Shown here: one piece after another, positions 4,909 through 37,670 of the stretch | Numbering within the stretch: the stretch's first letter is position 1 | Layout: each line of letters begins with the position of its first letter | From: Candidatus Brocadia sp. WS118 | GTDB lineage: Bacteria; Planctomycetota; Brocadiia; Brocadiales; Brocadiaceae | Assembly (NCBI GenBank): GCA_007618135.1 | Contig: PHFX01000007.1 | Span: forward strand, 1-64,000 | Length of the DNA stretch: 64,000 nt | Direction of reading: 5' to 3' | Program-made: the position numbers and the translations under genes | The notes under the pieces: model-generated | What the model saw: only the letters and a program-made list of their open reading frames with translations | What the model was told of the DNA's origin: nothing | Databases searched by the model: none

Positions 4909-6390
4909 TTAATTTGTCGTTATACCTTCAATAAATCCCTCTAATTTTCTGCTACGCAACGGATGCTGGAGCTTGCGAATGGCTACACTTTCAATCTGGC
5001 GTATTCGCTCTCTCGTTATGTTAAACCGCTCTCCAATTTCCTCCAGGGTATGAGTATATCCATCGCCAATTCCGAAACGCAATTTAATAACCTCGCGTTC
5101 TCTGTAGCTCAAGGTATCAAGAACCTTTTCTAACTGATCTTTAAGCAACGTTTGGTGGGCATTCGTAACTGGCGATTCAGTCTTCTTGTCCTGGATAAAA
5201 TCCTCAAACATCGTCTCACCACCTTCACCAATCGGACTCTCCAGCGATATCGGCTGCGATGCAATCCGAAATACCCGGTATACCTCAGAGACAGGGATCT
5301 TTGCCTCTTTTGCAATAGCTTCAATCTTTGGCTTTCTTTCAAGGCCTCCCTGAGATGCTTTTAATACCATGTTGGTCTTATTGATCACATCGGTCATATG
5401 TACGGGAATACGCACGGTCCTTGCCTTATCATCGATTGCCCGGATAATTGCCTGTTTAATCCACCAGGTAGCATACGTGCTGAATTTGAAACCCATACGG
5501 TAATCATATTTATCAACAGCCCGCATGAGACCGGTATTCCCTTCTTGTATAAGGTCGTGAAATACCAGTCCACGTTTTCTGTACCTTTTCGCGATACTCA
5601 CCACCAACCTCAAATTGCCTTCAGAAAATTGATTCCTGGCAGATTCATACTCATTATTAATGAATTTGATTGCGTAAATAGCTTTTTCCGCTTCGCGGAT
5701 ATTTTTCATGAATAAGAGTTTTATATCGTAAGCACGGTACGAACATTTCCCAAGAATTTCGTTTTTATAAAACGATCTTTTGGAATTTTCCTTAAAAGAA
5801 ACAATCTTCTCTAAAATATCCAATAAATCTCTCATTACCGGCAGTATTGTTTCTGCACGAACGTGCACTGCCTCTAACTCTCTAACCGCAGATCTCTTCC
5901 TCGCAGCTATCTTTTTCAGAATTCTGATCTTCAAATTTTTAGAGGCGGATTGCTTGTTTATCTTTTCATAATCTCTCAGATTCTTTTCCAGGATTTCTTT
6001 AATTTTTTTTGCTACACCATGGATTTGTTCAACCATTTCATTTTTGCTTTGGTCTCTTGTTGCTGACGTTTCGACAAATTGAACAAGGTCTGATTCACTG
6101 GCCAACTGCTCAAGAATGCGCGCATACCTTTCCAACCCATAATCAAACCTCAAGACCCTCCGGTGGAGTAATCGGCTCATTATTTTTACCTTCTTTGCAA
6201 GATGGAGCTCTTCTTCACGAGACAACAAGGGTAATTTTGCCATCTCTTTTAAGTAAAGCCGGACCGGGTCGTAGTCTTTATATTTTATATGATCTTTAAG
6301 CACTTCCACTTCGTTCAAATCATCTTCGGTAGCATAATTTTCATAGTTTTCGTCAATTAAGTGATCAATTTTATATTCAAATGCACCCAT
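4909..6390 (-). CDS. rpoD: RNA polymerase sigma factor RpoD (sigma-70, group 1 type)
   Basis: Directs core RNA polymerase to -35/-10 promoters. Region 1.2 is at about 40-65 ([21 protein letters not shown]). A long charged non-conserved region fills about 100-235. Region 2 follows near 250-320 with [20 protein letters not shown] and WWIKQAI, the RARTVR-like segment is [11 protein letters not shown], and region 4.2 has [15 protein letters not shown] near 450. Region 1.1 is essentially missing, since the protein begins only 40 residues before region 1.2, as in several Planctomycetota sigma factors. The gene ends at a strong terminator and is divergent from the Fur-family gene, with 319 AT-rich bases between. 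Promoters elsewhere in the window (TTGACA / TATAAT) fit recognition by such a factor. Confidence 0.95.
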
Positions 6391-6709
6391 TTTTGAATTT
6401 TCCTGCCTTTGGATTGAAATTTATAAAATATGACAATTTCGGTACATATAACAAAAATTTATCATAAAATGTTTACACAAAATATACATTTTTAAAATAC
6501 ATCATAACCAACCAATTTGAAATATGTTAACAAGAGCAGATGTCTTCTGCTAAAAATGTGACAGAATGGTGTTTCAGACAATGAAATCTACATTTCCAGG
6601 AAAACCAGAAATAACACTTTATACTTTTTTGTTGACTAATTATAAATAATTAAATACTATTTTACCTTAATTAACAATCATTTTTGTTTATTATTTAATT
6701 CATTCTACT
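6391..6709. promoter_or_regulatory. AT-rich divergent promoter region, rpoD / Fur-family gene
   Basis: A 319-base gap between divergent genes. On the plus strand a good sigma-70 promoter is visible: TTGACT (6632-6637), 17-bp spacer, TACTAT (6655-6660). The spacer holds an inverted repeat, TAATTAT-AA-ATAATTA (6637-6652), which resembles AT-rich Fur/PerR boxes and overlaps the core promoter, as expected for autorepression. The rpoD-side promoter is not obvious to me. Confidence 0.6.
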
Positions 6710-7126
6710 ATGGAAACTATAGAAAAACTTACAAAAAAGCTGAGAAGCCACGGTATGAAGATTACTCCCCAAAGGCTGATGATCTTCAAGGTGTTGGAGA
6801 ACAATACCTCCCATCCCTCTGCTGAAAATGTCTATAAAAAGGTAAAAAGGATATACCCCAGTGTATCATTTACCACTATCTACAAAACTTTGGAAACTTT
6901 AAGGAAATTGGGAGAAGTGAAGGAATTCACCATTGACGATGACCGCAAACATTACGACCCCAATACGAGTATACATCACCATGTAATCTGCTCTACCTGC
7001 AAAAGGATACTCGATGTATTTGAGGATTTCTCACCACACGTCAAATTGCCTGATTCTCTAGAAAAGGACTATGCCGTCTCAGGATTTCAGATATTTTTTC
7101 ATGGTATCTGCAAAGAATGCAATTAA
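6710..7126 (+). CDS. Fur-family metalloregulator, PerR-like
   Basis: DNA-binding metal- or peroxide-responsive repressor. The N-terminal winged helix contains GMKITPQRLMIFKVLE (about 15-30), SAENVYKKVKRIYPSVS and the recognition helix FTTIYKTLETLRKLGEV. The C-terminal dimerisation domain has HHHVICSTC (about 88-96) and a terminal CKEC, together a Cys4 structural zinc site. The His and Asp positions and the short length (138) match PerR better than Fur, though the sensing metal cannot be fixed from sequence. An inverted repeat inside its own promoter suggests autoregulation. The hslUV, hemerythrin and CBS genes nearby would suit a stress regulon, but I see no copies of the operator there. Confidence 0.85.
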   Translation: METIEKLTKKLRSHGMKITPQRLMIFKVLENNTSHPSAENVYKKVKRIYPSVSFTTIYKTLETLRKLGEVKEFTIDDDRKHYDPNTSIHHHVICSTCKRILDVFEDFSPHVKLPDSLEKDYAVSGFQIFFHGICKECN

Positions 7127-7251
7127 ATACGTGAGGTAAACTTTGATTTCTACCCACCAGGACAGAATGACGTCGTACGATACAAAATTAATCCATGCTA
7201 CGCATGCAAATTCCTTAGCATCAATATTTAGATGCATTCACTCATGGAATA

Positions 7252-7953
7252 TTATTTGGATGCGGTAACAAGGGCGCTAAATAATGCTGCATGGCAAGGA
7301 TCAGCAGTCATGCGTTCAGGATGCCATTGAACACCCATAAAAAATGGATAATCCTCGATTTCTATAGCTTCAGCAATACCATCTTCAGTATGTGCCGTAG
7401 CGACCAGGCCTTTGCCCAATTTATCTATTGCCTGATGATGGACACTATTGGTCTCAAGGTACTCTGTCCTGACAATCTTATGCAGGAGAGAGTTCTTTTC
7501 TATAGTCACCGGATGGACATATTGCTTGTTCCGTAAATCTTTATGAACAATACAGGATATGCCGCTTGACGAGATATCCTGAATAAGAGAACCGCCGAAA
7601 ACAACATTTACCAGCTGAGCGCCATAGCAAATAGCCAGAATCGGTTTTTTCATTTGAAAGGCAATATTTACCAGGAGATTATCAGAAATATCCTTGTCCG
7701 GATGAACGCATATCGTTTTTTTGTGTTGGTCTTTTCCATATCGTTGAGGGGGAACATCATTTCCTCCGGTAAGGATCAAGCCATCGATCCTTTTCAAGAA
7801 GTTGCGAACATCGTCGTCGTCTTTTATAATAGGCAATAACAAGGGAATACCGCATGATGCAATAACAGCATCGCTATAATTTCTATAGGTGAAAGAGTAT
7901 GGTTGTTTACCTTCTTCTTCGTAATCGCAATTGATACCAATTATTGGTTTCAT
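7252..7953 (-). CDS. Class I glutamine amidotransferase-like hydrolase (peptidase C26, PuuD type)
   Basis: Predicted gamma-glutamyl hydrolase of the gamma-glutamyl-GABA hydrolase family. The nucleophile Cys sits in ILAICYGAQLVNV (about 108) and the His/Glu pair in GVQWHPE near the C-terminus (about 210). LTGGNDVPPQRYG near 58 is also a family hallmark. At 233 residues it is complete. It stands alone, convergent with the Fur-family gene and upstream of nothing obvious, so the substrate (gamma-glutamyl-GABA, gamma-glutamyl peptides or other) is not settled. The start ATG opens the typical PIIGINCDYE strand. Confidence 0.85.
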   Translation of the reverse strand: MKPIIGINCDYEEEGKQPYSFTYRNYSDAVIASCGIPLLLPIIKDDDDVRNFLKRIDGLILTGGNDVPPQRYGKDQHKKTICVHPDKDISDNLLVNIAFQMKKPILAICYGAQLVNVVFGGSLIQDISSSGISCIVHKDLRNKQYVHPVTIEKNSLLHKIVRTEYLETNSVHHQAIDKLGKGLVATAHTEDGIAEAIEIEDYPFFMGVQWHPERMTADPCHAALFSALVTASK

Positions 7954-9507: not shown

Positions 9508-10046
9508 TACTTAACCTCCTCCACCTTGATATTCCTGTTGGTATACACACAAATGTCCGCTGCTATGGTAAGGGCTTCTTCAACGATCTCTTTCGCGGAC
9601 AATGAGGTATGTTTCATCAATGCCCTGGCAGCCGCAATGGCATATGCACCACCGGAGCCTATACCAATAATGCCGTCATCCGGCTCAATCACGTCTCCAC
9701 CACCTGAGATCAAAAAGGAATATTGTTTATCGACAACCACCAGCAGGGATTCCAGTTTCCTGAGCACCTTATCCGTTCGCCATTCCTTGGCCAGTTCATG
9801 CGCACTTCGCAGAACATTTCCCTGATACTGTTCGAGCTTGGCATCAAATCTTTCCATAAGGGCAAAGGCATCCGCAGATGAGCCGGCAAAACCCACAATA
9901 ACCTTGTCGTGATAAAGCCTTCGTATCTTTTTGGCATCCTGCTTTACTACCGCGGCATTCATGGTGACCTGGCCATCACCGCCAATGGCAACGTGCCCAT
10001 CCTTTCGGACGGCTAATATGGTTGTTGATACAATGACTGGCTTCAA
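9507..10046 (-). CDS. hslV: HslV, peptidase subunit of the HslUV protease
   Basis: Threonine peptidase of the proteasome-like HslUV complex. After a short propeptide (MKPVIVS) the mature N-terminus would be [19 protein letters not shown], with the catalytic Thr and a Lys near 33 in QVT...[20 protein letters not shown] and the sodium-site region [16 protein letters not shown] are family marks. Length 179 is normal. First gene of the hslV-hslU pair; it is divergent from the CBS-domain gene, with a palindrome and a strong promoter for the other side in between. Confidence 0.96.
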
Positions 10047-10146
10047 ATATCAATTCCCTTTCAAGCAATGAGTCGGGGGGATTAAGGCGTTGGTTGTTAC
10101 GCAGAATTCACCTTGTATAGCTAAAGGAAAGATACTATCAATTTAT

Positions 10147-10211
10147 TGATAAGTTATCAAGGCTTTTCTTGTTTCTTCCTGTTTGACAAACAGTGAATCG
10201 AGCGTATAATA
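10147..10211 (+). promoter_or_regulatory. Palindromic operator candidate plus sigma-70 promoter for the CBS/hemerythrin pair
   Basis: A near-ideal promoter TTGACA (10184-10189), 16-bp spacer, TATAAT (10206-10211) points right. Thirty bases upstream of it lies a perfect 7-1-7 palindrome, TTGATAAGTTATCAA (10147-10161). The half sites resemble FNR (TTGAT...ATCAA), but the spacing is five, not four. It could serve either the CBS gene or divergent hslV. Confidence 0.65.
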
Positions 10212-10285
10212 ACACCTTGACGTCGTCTGTGAAATCTGCGAATTCAGGTCGTTAAATTAATTTGTTATAGAAGGAGGTATGTGTT

Positions 10286-10684
10286 ATGAAAGCCAAAGAT
10301 ATTATGAACAAGATTGTTACGGCGGCAAAGCAGAACACCATCGGCAGGGACCTGGCGGTTAAATTATTGTCAGGCATGTATAGCGGATTACCGGTTGTCG
10401 ATGACAAGGGAAAGGTGCTTGGAATTGTGAGCGAGTTTGACCTTCTGAAGGCCATTCGAAGCGGCAAGGCCCTGGAACAGGTAACAGCAGGGGATATTAT
10501 GTCAAAAAATCCCATCTGCGTAAGTGAAGATACCTCAGTTGAGCAGATTATAGACCTTATGACAAAGCATAACATTATCCGCGTTCCCGTTCTGAGAAAT
10601 GATACGCTGGTGGGAGTCATCTCCAGATGCGATATCCTGAACAGCATCGTGGAACCCGAATTCGTAACATTCTTTGCTGATTAA
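10286..10684 (+). CDS. Two-CBS-domain protein
   Basis: Small cytoplasmic protein made of a tandem CBS pair (Bateman module), which usually binds adenine nucleotides. Repeats are seen at about 1-60 (MKAKDIMNKIVTAAKQNT ... GLPVVDDKGKVLGIVSEFDLL) and 65-130 (AGDIMSKNPICVSEDTSVEQ ... IRVPVLRNDTLVGVISRCDIL). AGAAGGAGG precedes the ATG. It ends two bases before the next ATG, so the hemerythrin-like lipoprotein gene is almost certainly in the same operon. The partner protein or enzyme it regulates is not evident. Confidence 0.93.
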   Translation: MKAKDIMNKIVTAAKQNTIGRDLAVKLLSGMYSGLPVVDDKGKVLGIVSEFDLLKAIRSGKALEQVTAGDIMSKNPICVSEDTSVEQIIDLMTKHNIIRVPVLRNDTLVGVISRCDILNSIVEPEFVTFFAD

Positions 10685-10686
10685 AC

Positions 10687-11367
10687 ATGAAAAAATTCCT
10701 TGTTCCTCTTGTTGTTATTTCTTGTGTCAGTAATACCGCCTGTAGTGCTCCAAAACACCGGATGTATCCAGAGCATACGCACCTTGAAAACACAAACCTA
10801 TTGGTTACAGACATACTCCATGATGACTTTGATGTAGTAAAAAGGATGTTACACCTCCTGGGAAAAGCCACCTATTGCCTGGAGAATGGAAAACCCGTGT
10901 CGAAGGAAAATTTTCAAGACCTGGTAAAAATCATCTCTGGATTTTCTGATAAACACCATCAGGAGAAGGAAGACAAGGTGCTCTTTCCCGCACTCAAAGT
11001 GAAGAATGATGGTGAAAAGAAGGATTTCTTAGGGCGACTCCTTATGGAACATGTGTCAGCGCGTGATGCAATAAGAAATCTGACCGGAGCGCTCATTCAT
11101 TTCGATCAGGGAAAAAAGGCAAAAAAGAAGATTGCCAAAATCGCTCATTCGTATATCAAAGACATGGAAAAGCATATTGAAATGGAGGAAAAAATCCTCT
11201 TCCCATGGATAGGCAAGGTGTTGACTCCCGATGAACAGGCAATGTTCATGAAAAAATTCGAAACCCTGGAAAAAGAAGACCTCGAAGCCGGCATACATGA
11301 GAAATACAGCTCCATGATCGAACGGCTAGAGCAACAATTGGGACTGTGTTCAGATTTTAAAGAATAA
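10687..11367 (+). CDS. Hemerythrin-like (HHE) lipoprotein
   Basis: Probable envelope-anchored di-iron, O2/NO- or metal-binding four-helix protein. A signal segment MKKFLVPLVVISCVSNTAC ends in a lipobox-like cysteine (residue 19; the N-T-A-C context is loose). Hemerythrin ligands appear as HDDFDVVKRML (about 43), HHQEKEDKVLFP (about 93), EHVSARD (about 118) and HIEMEEKILFPWI (about 160), the H...HxxxE...H...HxxxE order of the HHE family. It is translationally coupled to the CBS gene. The normal HHE domain is cytoplasmic in many proteins, so the export signal is a point of interest. Confidence 0.85.
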   Translation: MKKFLVPLVVISCVSNTACSAPKHRMYPEHTHLENTNLLVTDILHDDFDVVKRMLHLLGKATYCLENGKPVSKENFQDLVKIISGFSDKHHQEKEDKVLFPALKVKNDGEKKDFLGRLLMEHVSARDAIRNLTGALIHFDQGKKAKKKIAKIAHSYIKDMEKHIEMEEKILFPWIGKVLTPDEQAMFMKKFETLEKEDLEAGIHEKYSSMIERLEQQLGLCSDFKE

Positions 11368-11438
11368 TTCCCTGTTCACTTCACGTAGAAATACCATTTT
11401 GTTTATTTCCTCACCTTTCATTACAGGAGGATTTGAAG

Positions 11439-11610
11439 ATGACAAAACATCTTTTGCTCCTTTTCATTACCACTACCGCGCTGATAGCATATTCACCAAC
11501 ATCCCGAACCAAAGGGAGATGCGAAGGTCTGGGATAGTTACAGGTACGGTCTGGTTGCGATGCGTGAAGATACGCGGAACGAGGCGATTTCGTCATTGGT
11601 ATTGTGTTAA
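11439..11610 (+). pseudogene. Frameshifted small exported-peptide gene
   Basis: AGGAGG (11425-11430) precedes an ATG that opens a classic signal peptide (MTKHLLLLFITTTALIA). The same frame stops at 11537 after an unlikely tail. Read one base later, from just after the signal, the frame gives HPEPKGDAKVWDSYRYGLVA and ends at 11610, which looks like genuine protein. I infer a single-base indel near 11490 in a gene for an exported peptide of about 56 residues. A hairpin (CAAGGCAG / CTGCCTTG) follows. The family is unknown, and a sequencing indel is possible. Confidence 0.4.
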
Positions 11611-31239: not shown

Positions 31240-33231
31240 TCATTTTCGGTTCGCGATAATTTTTTCTCTCATCTTTGCAGCCAGGTCATGCGCCACGGCC
31301 CCCAAATTTTCCTCACTCCGAAAGGCACGTTCAAGCGTATCGATGAGCGTAGTAGCCGTGTCAACTACCTCTATCCTTATAATGCGCTGATCCTGCCCTT
31401 CCCCCGGATAGACTTCTCCAAAGCAAAGGAACTGAGCGCCTTGTATCTTTCCCAGCTCGACTCTGTACATCTCATCGGCAAGAACAGAGCCACTGAGCCT
31501 TTGCTCCCGTAAAATCTCCTCCTGCAATTCCAAATCCCTTTCTACCACACGCAAATCGTTTTGCGCCAGGAGGGCATCGATGATCCTTTGCCGGAGCATT
31601 TCCATGTTGTGCCGGTTTGATAGTGCACCCATTTTTAAGTTGAATTCCTTAACAGATACAGGCACAGCGTGGGTGACGTCTATGGATACCGGTTTTTTTG
31701 CTGACGGCTTTTTGGCAAGCGCGGGTTTTTCTTTCCCGGGTTGTTTCTGTACCATGGTCTCTAATTCTTTGATAAGCGTATCGATATTTTCCTTTGTTTT
31801 TTGTAAAGATGCTTTCTTATGCACCGCTTCGGTATGTGCTGTTAGAGTACTGCCGGGAGTAATAGCTTCTGCCTCTGCAACATGATGCTTTTCATTATTC
31901 ATCGGTATCTTACTCGTCTCACCACCCGATCCTACGTAATCTGGTGAAGGTCCGCCTGAGCTTGAATATGCCAAAAGAGTGCCGCTGGAAGTGCCGGATT
32001 CATCCCCAAAATAGAATTGCTCAAAGAGTTGGTCGGAATATATCTCTGTTATTTCATCGGGATTAATAAATACGGTATCCGATACATCATGGCCGCCTCT
32101 CATTTTTATCATAACAGGATATGTCCCGCTGGTGAGTTTTATGTCCAATGGGGTTACGCCAACGTCCTTGCCTTTTATATATACCGTTGCCCCCTCGGGT
32201 TTGCTATTAATTTGCAGGCCTCCCGGCTGAGGTGTTGTAATTTTTTGAGCGCTTCCTTTGGTGCCGGTTACTATACCGGGAAATCCCAGGGGAAGATTGT
32301 TGTCAAAGTTTCCTGAGATATCCGGGTGCTGGGCGCTGTGCGTGGCTCTCTTTACGTTTTCTTCTGCAAAATCGAATGCCTCCGCAAGGGTAACGATGCC
32401 GTTTTTATTTCCTCCTGCATCCGCCGGTCCTCTTAAACCTTCGAGCAGGTAGTGAGTAAACACCCCATGACCGCCGCCAAATTGATCGGATTCTACGGAG
32501 ACCTCGCGTGCCCTGCTCGCACTGACAATCCCCCATCCCTCCCGTGTTGATCTGAGCGTGGAAAGCGCTGCATGAATCGTGTTCGCCCCTCCTCTGATAT
32601 TCACGGTGCTTTTTGTAAGGCCGGAGCTGTGACAGGCATCTGCAACGAAGACCAGCCTTTTTGCCGCGATATATCGTTTCATGTCGGCATTGACATTTTC
32701 CATATGATAGGCAGTTGCAGACAGGCTGCCGGGTTCAGAGTCATGCATAAGTAAATAGAGATTGTTGGGCCGGTCTGGTTCAGGTTCGCCATGACATGCC
32801 ATGAAGATAACGACAAAATCAGTCTCCTTTGTCTTTTTAAGAAAGTTTGTGATGGACAGCGTAACGTTTTTCAGGGTTGCCTGCTCGTTCTTTAAGAGTA
32901 AAACATGTTCTTTCTGAAAATCACCGCCGGCCGGGCTGGTAATAAAATCATAAAAGGCCTGGGCATCGGCGTCCGCATATTGCAGATCGGTTATCCGTGG
33001 GTCCTTATAATCTGATATACCGATCACGACAGCATACCGCTGAATATCATTGTCTTCAAAATATTGTTTGGGCGGCAATATACCACGAACAAAAGGACCT
33101 CCGCTCTCTTTTCCATTCTTTGATACGGCCCCTTGAGGAGATGCATCAGTGAAAAAGCTGAATAAAACTACCGGCAATATGAAACACAGATACCGCCTCG
33201 TATGTAAGAGAAATAAGAAAATAGTATTCAT
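31240..33231 (-). CDS. Caspase-like + PEGA + CsgG-like three-domain exported protein
   Basis: After a signal peptide (about 12-28), residues 63-310 form a metacaspase-like C14 domain: RYAVVIGISDY, catalytic H147 in VVIFMACHGEP, catalytic C200 in LVFVADACHSSG. Residues about 330-375 form a PEGA domain (INSKPEGATVYIKGKDVGVTPL), a surface-associated beta fold. A low-complexity Ser/Gly/Lys linker follows. Residues about 525-660 resemble the CsgG domain of the two neighbouring genes, including the shared EEILREQ motif and VVDTATTLID. I know of no standard protein with this order. It is the first gene of a same-strand set of three CsgG-domain genes; palindromes and a hairpin with T-run lie upstream. 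Confidence 0.82.
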   Translation of the reverse strand: MNTIFLFLLHTRRYLCFILPVVLFSFFTDASPQGAVSKNGKESGGPFVRGILPPKQYFEDNDIQRYAVVIGISDYKDPRITDLQYADADAQAFYDFITSPAGGDFQKEHVLLLKNEQATLKNVTLSITNFLKKTKETDFVVIFMACHGEPEPDRPNNLYLLMHDSEPGSLSATAYHMENVNADMKRYIAAKRLVFVADACHSSGLTKSTVNIRGGANTIHAALSTLRSTREGWGIVSASRAREVSVESDQFGGGHGVFTHYLLEGLRGPADAGGNKNGIVTLAEAFDFAEENVKRATHSAQHPDISGNFDNNLPLGFPGIVTGTKGSAQKITTPQPGGLQINSKPEGATVYIKGKDVGVTPLDIKLTSGTYPVMIKMRGGHDVSDTVFINPDEITEIYSDQLFEQFYFGDESGTSSGTLLAYSSSGGPSPDYVGSGGETSKIPMNNEKHHVAEAEAITPGSTLTAHTEAVHKKASLQKTKENIDTLIKELETMVQKQPGKEKPALAKKPSAKKPVSIDVTHAVPVSVKEFNLKMGALSNRHNMEMLRQRIIDALLAQNDLRVVERDLELQEEILREQRLSGSVLADEMYRVELGKIQGAQFLCFGEVYPGEGQDQRIIRIEVVDTATTLIDTLERAFRSEENLGAVAHDLAAKMREKIIANRK

Positions 33232-33752: not shown

Positions 33753-35099
33753 CTATTTCCTTTCGTCTGGTTTATTGATCACACCTTCAGACCAATTGAT
33801 AATGGCCCCAATGTCAACGGGTTCACCGCCGATGGACATCTTGTGCTGTCGTCCTTCCAGCAACTTTTTTTCTTCACCCTCCACGAACAAAACAGCATCA
33901 CCCTTCACGGCGGTTACGATGGTAACAAAATCCTTTGCCATAATATTCAAAGTTCCCCTTTTGGTTCTAATCCGCCCATTTGGTGTATCAATTTCAAATG
34001 GCGTTTCTAACCCTTTTACAGAAATGAATATCTGTCCTGATGTAAGCTTTATCTTTAAGGAGTCGACAAAGTGCACTTCGGTATTTGCATCCATACCCAC
34101 ATCAATGCCCTTTTTCGTAGACAGGGCAGTTCTTCCTTCGCTGCCGGTTTTCAGGGTAATACCGTTCCGGAAATGGGTATGGTTTGATACCTTTTCCCAG
34201 TCCCGCTCTTCAGGGCGCAAAAACTGAACCTCTCCCCGGATGTCTAACAGGTTGACTTCACCGCCCTTGTGTGTTAAATAAAAATAAAACACAAACAACA
34301 GCAGGATTCCGCTCCCCACGATGGTGCCTAAAAAGAAAAATCCCTTCTTTGTAGGTCTTGCGATGAGTATTCCCAATTCATAGAGGATAACCATGGGAAC
34401 CGCGGTCATGGTCTGAGTGAAGGGGTCTGGCGGTGTGACGATAGCGGCAATAATAAATATTACCAGGACGGCATATTTTCTCCACGCAATAAATTTATCA
34501 GGGGTAACAAATCTAATCTTTGAAAGGAGCAGCATAACAAGCGGCAACTGGAATACGAGCCCCAATGCTACGGTCAGCATGAAAACAAACGAGACGTAGT
34601 CCTTCATGGTAATAATCGGTTGAATACCGGGGCCAAGAATGCCTATCAGAAATTGCAAACCAAAGGGGATGAGCAAAAAATACCCAAAAAGCCCGCCAAT
34701 CACAAATGCCGCATATGAGACCGGAAGGAACATAAGCACGTACCGCTGCTCTCTCTTGTAAAGCCCGGTGCTTACAAATTGCCATATTTGGTATATCACA
34801 ACAGGGTAGGCCAAAAAAACCGACGTTATGAAGCACAATTTCATATACGCATAGAAACCCTCCTGGTAGCTCAGCACCTGCAATTCTGTTGAAAGACCAA
34901 CCTTTTCCATGGCAAACTTATGGGGTCTTTTGGCTATGTCCAATATCTGCGCTTTAAAAAACCAGCATAATATAAAACAGAGGATAATTGAGATGATTGA
35001 AAATACGACCCTGCGCCTCAACTCTTCAAGATGCGCGCCTAACGGCATTCTCAGGCTTTCAGTTTCGTTGGTTGTCTCTTCAGGCTTTGTTTCTTCCAC
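33753..35099 (-). CDS. tatC: TatC fused to a FecR-like periplasmic domain
   Basis: Residues about 15-255 are TatC, the multi-span receptor of the twin-arginine export system: MPLGAHLEELRRRVVFSI is the diagnostic start, with six helices and AYPVVIYQIWQFVSTGLYKREQRY between helices 2 and 3 (quoted in parts). A seventh span follows (about 258-278, FFFLGTIVGSGILLLFVFYF). Residues 285-448 then form a periplasmic beta domain of the FecR type (GEVNLLDIRGEVQFL, TGSEGRTALSTKKGID, LTSGQIFISVKG, FEIDTPNGRIRTKRGTLNI). Normal TatC ends after six helices at about 250. The frame is unbroken. No TatA/B gene is in the window. Confidence 0.9.
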   Translation of the reverse strand: MEETKPEETTNETESLRMPLGAHLEELRRRVVFSIISIILCFILCWFFKAQILDIAKRPHKFAMEKVGLSTELQVLSYQEGFYAYMKLCFITSVFLAYPVVIYQIWQFVSTGLYKREQRYVLMFLPVSYAAFVIGGLFGYFLLIPFGLQFLIGILGPGIQPIITMKDYVSFVFMLTVALGLVFQLPLVMLLLSKIRFVTPDKFIAWRKYAVLVIFIIAAIVTPPDPFTQTMTAVPMVILYELGILIARPTKKGFFFLGTIVGSGILLLFVFYFYLTHKGGEVNLLDIRGEVQFLRPEERDWEKVSNHTHFRNGITLKTGSEGRTALSTKKGIDVGMDANTEVHFVDSLKIKLTSGQIFISVKGLETPFEIDTPNGRIRTKRGTLNIMAKDFVTIVTAVKGDAVLFVEGEEKKLLEGRQHKMSIGGEPVDIGAIINWSEGVINKPDERK

Positions 35100-36386: not shown

Positions 36387-37670
36387 ATGCGCAATAGAAC
36401 AATTGCCCGCGAACTCGCCCTTCAAGCCCTTTATCAACTTGATCAGCGTGGTGACGAGATCATCGATGAGATAGATAATTTCTGCAAGAGAAGCACGGAA
36501 AAGCACGACGTATACCAGTTTGCCAAAGCGCTTACCAACGGTTGCCGGTCACACCTGAAAGAAATCGACGAAAAGATATCAAGTGTTACAGAACATTGGG
36601 AATTACGGCGCATGGCCATTATTGATAAAAATATTCTCCGCCTGGGAGTTTACGAATTATTGTATCGAAATGATATACCCCCAAAGGTATCAATTAACGA
36701 GGCAATAGAACTTGCCAAAAAATTTAGCACAAAAAACTCAGGAACCTTTGTGAACGGGATTTTAGATAAGATTTATACCCAATTTGGAGACGGAAAACTG
36801 AAGGGCGATACCCGCCCGCTCGCACCTCAAGATGTAGCGGAAATTACGTATGGGGACGCAGACCTGCATATACACACCACCTATTCCGATGGCACCATGA
36901 CGCCGGAAGAAGTTGTCGACGACGCCATTCGCCGCGGTATCTCAGCGATTGCGATTACGGATCACGATACGATTGACGGACTCGTCATTGCCTGTCGTTA
37001 CGGAGAGGGCAAAAAGCTCCATATTATACCCGGCATAGAATTTTCGTCATACCTCAACCCTTCCGAGGTCCATATCCTTGGGTATTTTATCGATGTGAAT
37101 AACGTATTTTTACGAAAAATAATACAACAGTCCCGTGATGACCGTGTGAATCGCATCCACGCGATCGTAGAAAAATTGCATAAACTCCACGTTGATATTG
37201 ATCCACAGGAGATCCTGACCCTTGCCGGGCGAGGATCTCCTGGCCGCATGCATGTGGCTGAAATGATATGGCAACACGGCTATTGCAGTACGATTTTAGA
37301 GTCATTTTCAAAATATATAGGAGATAATAAACCTGCCTATGTTCCTAAAAAAACATTGACATCGCAACAGGCCATTGAACTTATCAGAGATGCCGGGGGG
37401 GTGTCCGTGCTGGCCCATCCAGGACTCACGCAAAGAGACAATGTTATCGAAGATTTGGTAAAATGCGGCTTGCAGGGGATCGAGGTATATTATCCTTCGC
37501 ATACTCCACAGGCCGTCAAGAGGTATCTTAAAATCGCAAAGAAGTACAACCTTGCAATAACCGGCGGCTCGGATTTCCATGGTGAAAGAAGGGTGAACTG
37601 TCCAATCGCCAAAGTAACCGTACCGGGCGACCTTGTTCGCAAACTGAGACAAAGATGTCCTGCCCGGTAA
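36387..37670 (+). CDS. nusB: Fusion: NusB antiterminator + PHP-family phosphoesterase
   Basis: Residues 1-135 are a complete NusB (ARELALQALYQLDQRG, RMAIIDKNILRLGVYELLY, SINEAIELAKKFSTKNSGTFVNGILDKI), which joins NusE in rRNA antitermination. Residues about 155-427 are a PHP domain: metal ligands DLHIHTTYSDG, ITDHDTIDG, PGIEFSS, SVLAHPGLT and GGSDFHGE are all intact, as in YciV/RnaAm-like nucleotide phosphatases or exonucleases acting on RNA ends. NusB normally ends at about 140. The frame is continuous and both domains keep key residues, so the fusion looks real and couples an rRNA transcription factor with a likely RNA/nucleotide phosphoesterase. Confidence 0.9.
   Translation: MRNRTIARELALQALYQLDQRGDEIIDEIDNFCKRSTEKHDVYQFAKALTNGCRSHLKEIDEKISSVTEHWELRRMAIIDKNILRLGVYELLYRNDIPPKVSINEAIELAKKFSTKNSGTFVNGILDKIYTQFGDGKLKGDTRPLAPQDVAEITYGDADLHIHTTYSDGTMTPEEVVDDAIRRGISAIAITDHDTIDGLVIACRYGEGKKLHIIPGIEFSSYLNPSEVHILGYFIDVNNVFLRKIIQQSRDDRVNRIHAIVEKLHKLHVDIDPQEILTLAGRGSPGRMHVAEMIWQHGYCSTILESFSKYIGDNKPAYVPKKTLTSQQAIELIRDAGGVSVLAHPGLTQRDNVIEDLVKCGLQGIEVYYPSHTPQAVKRYLKIAKKYNLAITGGSDFHGERRVNCPIAKVTVPGDLVRKLRQRCPAR

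Follow-up and report, generated by a model that had tools for sequence, protein, structure and literature searches.

The window, a stretch of 64,000 nucleotides from Candidatus Brocadia sp. WS118, carries a gene in which TatC continues, in one frame of 448 aa without a single internal stop (33753-35099, minus strand), through a seventh hydrophobic segment into a FecR-type domain (Table 1). Of the genes around it in the window, five were scanned, a CsgG-like gene, a caspase-PEGA gene, ribH, nusB-PHP and ftsY, and in the Brocadiales tatC-fecR is usually divergent from the last three of these. The caspase (peptidase C14) domain joined to PEGA (31240-33231, minus strand) adjoins the CsgG-like gene, and the two also lie beside tatC in Ca. 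B. pituitae (locus L032) and not within the available flanks of most other relatives. NusB and PHP domain share one frame (36387-37670, plus strand), which is kept whole beside tatC at many Brocadiales loci.

Table 1. Features of the tatC-fecR gene, with positions in the window
Feature	Positions	Strand	Basis
tatC-fecR fusion gene	33753..35099	-	single open frame: 448 codons + stop, GTG start
TatC domain, residues 23-235	34395..35033	-	Pfam PF00902 2.5e-65; Z 14.7 to A. aeolicus TatC 4b4a
Seventh transmembrane span, ~residues 254-276	34272..34340	-	hydropathy peak and predicted helix 251-276
FecR-type all-beta domain, predicted trans side, ~residues 282-422	33834..34256	-	Pfam PF04773 at 315-401; PupR 6ovk_R match
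Short C-terminal helix, residues 431-441, with Trp436	33777..33809	-	predicted helix; Trp436 an invariant column in two alignments, class-wide

A TatC core joined to half of a FecR regulator

The TatC domain scores 220.6 bits against a Pfam cut-off of 25.1, and 190.5 against 132.7 with the NCBIfam model TIGR00945 (tatC), while the FecR domain reaches 29.8 bits (8.6e-7) against a cut-off of 24. Residue 262 marks the centre of the seventh hydrophobic segment (KD 2.29), which RPTKK precedes, and the hydropathy of the remaining chain reveals no further TM-like segment. The usual topology of TatC is N-in, six spans, C-in, so that an added seventh span would leave the remainder of the chain on the trans side. 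Hydropathy, charge and published predictors thus suggest that the FecR-type domain is non-cytoplasmic, as has been predicted for the Kuenenia orthologue (PMC2881027). This architecture, with its seventh span and non-cytoplasmic beta domain, had been proposed in a preliminary description of the locus, and Pfam, hydropathy and predicted fold all agree with it.

The same description knew of no reported TatC-FecR protein, which was mistaken: Medema et al. 2010 describe exactly such a protein, kustc0286 of Kuenenia stuttgartiensis, and termed it unique, the Sec and Tat parts of that organism being canonical apart from the C-terminal FecR domain in TatC, which was in 2010 absent from every other TatC then identified (PMC2881027). 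The window protein, which likewise combines TatC and a predicted non-cytoplasmic PF04773 in one chain, is the orthologue of kustc0286; it comes from another genus of the same order and shares with it the order of the domains and the single-copy status of TatC. The architecture is therefore already known and not new. Beyond Medema et al. 2010 no mention of kustc0286 was found in the literature searched, nor, among titles and abstracts, another paper on such a fusion, nor a functional test of it. Added here are the spread of the fusion beyond the anammox order, the observation that only half of the periplasmic part of FecR regulators is kept, and an unrelated extension in a second TatC clade.

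In E. coli TatC, residues F94, E103, P48, D211 and Q215 are needed for signal-peptide and TatA/B binding. In the alignment all five are identical in the window protein, as are R105 and T208, and E170 is replaced by Gln. A search for a second, normal TatC, which the preliminary description had called for, found none in the window's own genome nor in the 54 other genomes of the order with a TatC match, leaving the FecR fusion as the sole TatC detected; across the order Brocadiales, 55 of the 59 genomes (the window's own included) have such a match, always a single one, and most of the frames are of at least 440 residues. As the key TatC residues are kept and no other TatC is present, it must be the fusion protein that acts as Tat receptor. 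Two genes of the TatA/B family lie away from tatC in the window's genome (G000:C278:37921-38061 and G000:C69:30884-31027). Of eight Brocadiales genomes examined for these genes, seven likewise have two, and one TatA/B entry is listed for Kuenenia by Medema et al. 2010 (PMC2881027).

An AlphaFold model (23 sequences) has a middling pLDDT of 64.9 over the whole chain, with means of 72-88 for the FecR blocks across residues 311-420. In this predicted fold, residues 311-423 match residues 111-231 of PupR (6ovk_R) with a Z of 14.9 and an rmsd of 1.9 over 113 residues, and the Parabacteroides anti-sigma factor 4m0n matches the FecR part with a Z of 14.7; other structural matches, to neither TatC nor FecR-type chains, were set aside as low-Z and helical. 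The juxta-membrane domain of PupR (110-238) is followed by a separate STN domain, and binding of the receptor requires both subdomains (PMC7186176). With the FecR/PupR-type sigma regulators (PDB 6OVK, PMC7186176) the fusion thus has in common a single span followed by a juxta-membrane all-beta domain, but it differs from them at both ends: TatC takes the place of the N-terminal cytoplasmic anti-sigma domain, for which there is no Pfam match in the 448-aa chain, and the C-terminal STN domain is absent, the chain ending at residue 448, about 20 residues past the matched beta domain. TatC-FecR therefore retains only the juxta-membrane half of FecR regulators, and since the anti-sigma and STN parts are missing, canonical FecR signalling by it is unlikely. 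No ECF sigma factor gene was found among the five neighbouring genes scanned.

Integrity, distribution and origin of the fusion

An assembly join or frameshift linking two separate genes, which the preliminary description had singled out for checking, has a vanishingly small probability. Broken frames in two relatives (near codons 272-279 in G022 and near codons 299-314 in G030) might seem to favour it, but the remainder of the FecR domain is intact in another frame in each, for which reason these breaks are probably indels. The orthologues refute such an artefact: some 20 anammox assemblies, independent of one another and one of them (Ca. Brocadia pituitae) a complete genome, have the identical join intact, and it recurs in other families of the class. 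Carriers, in part from a scan of genome contigs that reaches close relatives only, include Ca. Brocadia carolinensis, B. pituitae, B. sapporoensis, Jettenia, Loosdrechtia, Kuenenia and Scalindua. The two halves of the gene fall on different contigs in G003, and in G043 the match ends at query residue 362. A chance extension of the frame is likewise excluded, because no open frame survives in any of 5000 shuffled versions of the FecR-coding DNA, the intact assemblies number about 20, and dN/dS between Brocadia species is 0.10-0.18 in the FecR part (0.04-0.07 in TatC). Judged from these ratios, the FecR part is under purifying selection; its sequence identity drops faster than that of TatC, and Gly355, Gly400, Gly416 and Trp436 are invariant class-wide in the alignments.

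Full-length matches to the fusion also occur outside the Brocadiales in the same class (seven f6 genomes and one each from families f8 and f9), and every one of the sequences, when read, has TatC followed by a seventh span and then a FecR-like domain. Further long TatC-FecR proteins, the existence of which had been left to be checked, are thus found throughout the Brocadiales and in these three families, and of the 22 C-terminal parts that were aligned, 18 match Pfam FecR with an E of at most 0.01. The TatC of family f7 is without extension. Since Pfam HZS_alpha alone is a poor marker of anammox (it is multi-copy in f8 and f9, and many draft anammox genomes, among them that of the window, lack it), full-length HzsA was used as the query; it has no match in any f6 genome, the seven with TatC-FecR being 67-96% complete, and matches the four anammox genomes used as controls at 64-82% identity. 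Divergent hydrazine-synthase-like genes are present in f8 and f9, so that the argument against an anammox-specific origin rests on f6, and the occurrence there argues against the fusion having arisen for the anammox organelle.

A pair of hydrazine-synthase-like genes was seen in a genome of the class outside the Brocadiales, at locus L154 (G307:C183:41000-54000, at 5160-7790 and 9650-11521, minus strand): one frame, of 877 aa, is 30% identical to HzsA across 755 positions, the other, of 624 aa, matches HzsB (31%) and then HzsC (32%), and each has two CxxCH motifs. A similar pair, HzsA-like and HzsC-like, lies on contig C35 of G276.

In a tree built on the TatC cores alone, midpoint-rooted only and of moderate support, all 25 FecR-bearing proteins are grouped (support 87/83), and f7 falls elsewhere. 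Together with the lack of detectable HzsA in f6, this grouping makes a single fusion event, probably before the rise of anammox, the simplest reading. As to the source of the added part, a profile built on FecR together with the seventh span was searched in 391 genomes, all from the phylum Planctomycetota, to which the sampling for the fusion and its relatives was confined. The strong matches are to TatC-FecR of Brocadiia only (E <1e-31, the weakest being the partial protein of G043 at 6e-32). The next ones elsewhere in the phylum are at 9e-20 or weaker, and TatC-FecR proteins among them were rejected, as no TatC was present in the fetched stretches around the 20 of the stronger ones that were inspected. 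The weaker matches do include chains with a zinc-finger-like N-terminus, one span and FecR, as read by eye from motifs and spans. The donor was probably such a zinc-finger/TM/FecR-like protein of the anti-sigma type, the zinc-finger part of which would have been replaced by TatC; in an ancestor within the class Brocadiia, tatC would have been joined to the TM-plus-FecR half of such a membrane protein.

Possible roles on the trans side

With regard to how anammox bacteria sort proteins to their envelope or their anammoxosome, TatC-FecR is the one odd part of the export machinery that has been singled out, Medema et al. 2010 having speculated on its role in sorting to the anammoxosome (PMC2881027). 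The presence of the fusion in lineages without detectable hydrazine synthase, and its possession of only half of the periplasmic part of a signalling protein, shift the focus to a general role for it on the trans side of the Tat core rather than an anammox invention. By analogy with solved structures, we propose, as the likeliest reading and one with about an even chance of being right, that the FecR part is a constitutive module for structure or docking, sited on the trans face of the TatBC core. In this model, the seventh span would carry the FecR-type domain to the periplasm, or to the anammoxosome lumen if Tat sits there, and, as TatC functions in TatBC units assembled in threes, each core complex would have three FecR domains around its trans face. 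They would stabilize the trimer or hold an envelope partner, rather than serve as a sigma-factor signalling device.

The precedent comes from the TatC proteins of Myxococcus xanthus and Nitratifractor salsuginis, which have large inserts in their periplasmic loops; the M. xanthus insert is a homotrimer that adds to the TatC-TatC contacts (PMC13323110; PDB 9E03, 9E02). The likeness lies in the large extra periplasmic part, which trimerizes in M. xanthus. The geometry differs, however, as those inserts lie in loops, whereas the FecR-type domain stands at the C-terminus behind an added span. The structural or docking role also fits a sole TatC with its key residues kept, a FecR part under purifying selection and retained class-wide, the presence of just the juxta-membrane half of FecR regulators, the zinc-finger, span and FecR chains as the nearest relatives in the phylum, and the grouping of all FecR-bearing proteins in the TatC-core tree. 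That FecR is less conserved than TatC would also fit the binding of a partner or sensing. The preliminary description had suggested that the domain could sense cargo or the envelope state, or act as a tether. A sensor, in which FecR detects cargo or the state of the envelope on the trans side and relays it via the conformation of TatC or by cut-and-release as in FecR regulators, would agree with the signalling-type nature of the domain's nearest relatives and with its placement behind a span, as in sigma regulators; it is nonetheless fairly unlikely, given the missing anti-sigma and STN domains, the need of PupR for both of its subdomains, and the lack of a sigma gene among the neighbours scanned.

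Quite improbable, too, is the role as a sorting determinant, which would have FecR place the translocon in the anammoxosome membrane or select cargo for the organelle. The fusion does occur throughout the anammox order, and the Tat components of Kuenenia are predicted to be anammoxosomal (PMC2881027), but the seven f6 genomes carry TatC-FecR with no detectable HzsA; a later re-use of the fusion for sorting in anammox bacteria may nevertheless have taken place. Finally, the domain could be a passenger, fixed once and retained without a function of its own, as the faster fall of its identity and the existence of an f7 TatC without FecR would permit, but the low dN/dS and the four residues invariant throughout the class make this highly improbable.

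The structural or docking role may be set beside other planctomycete TatC proteins with extensions. Those of families f14 and f36 form a separate clade of seven proteins (L056-L062, support 98/98), in which the chain past the sixth span holds a hydrophobic stretch, as judged by eye, plus some 150 more residues; hhalign detects no similarity between this C-terminal part and FecR (probability 0.2%), and the best Pfam match of the extension, at E 0.012, is unconvincing. Together with the M. xanthus and N. salsuginis inserts, additional trans-side domains on TatC seem to be a recurring theme. A broader and rather doubtful extension of this idea is that planctomycete TatC acquired, on at least two occasions, a seventh span together with a trans-side domain, drawn from unrelated domains (FecR in Brocadiia, a non-Pfam one in f14/f36). 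This would imply a general need for a trans-side Tat accessory module, which anammox bacteria would afterwards have turned to placing or controlling Tat at the organelle. The long TatC frames of f14, f36 and f13 were also considered as further FecR cases and rejected, their C-terminal parts being unlike FecR (in f13, as judged by eye). The TatC of family f13 (L064, genome G062) has a long C-terminal part past the sixth span and sits on a long branch in the tree.
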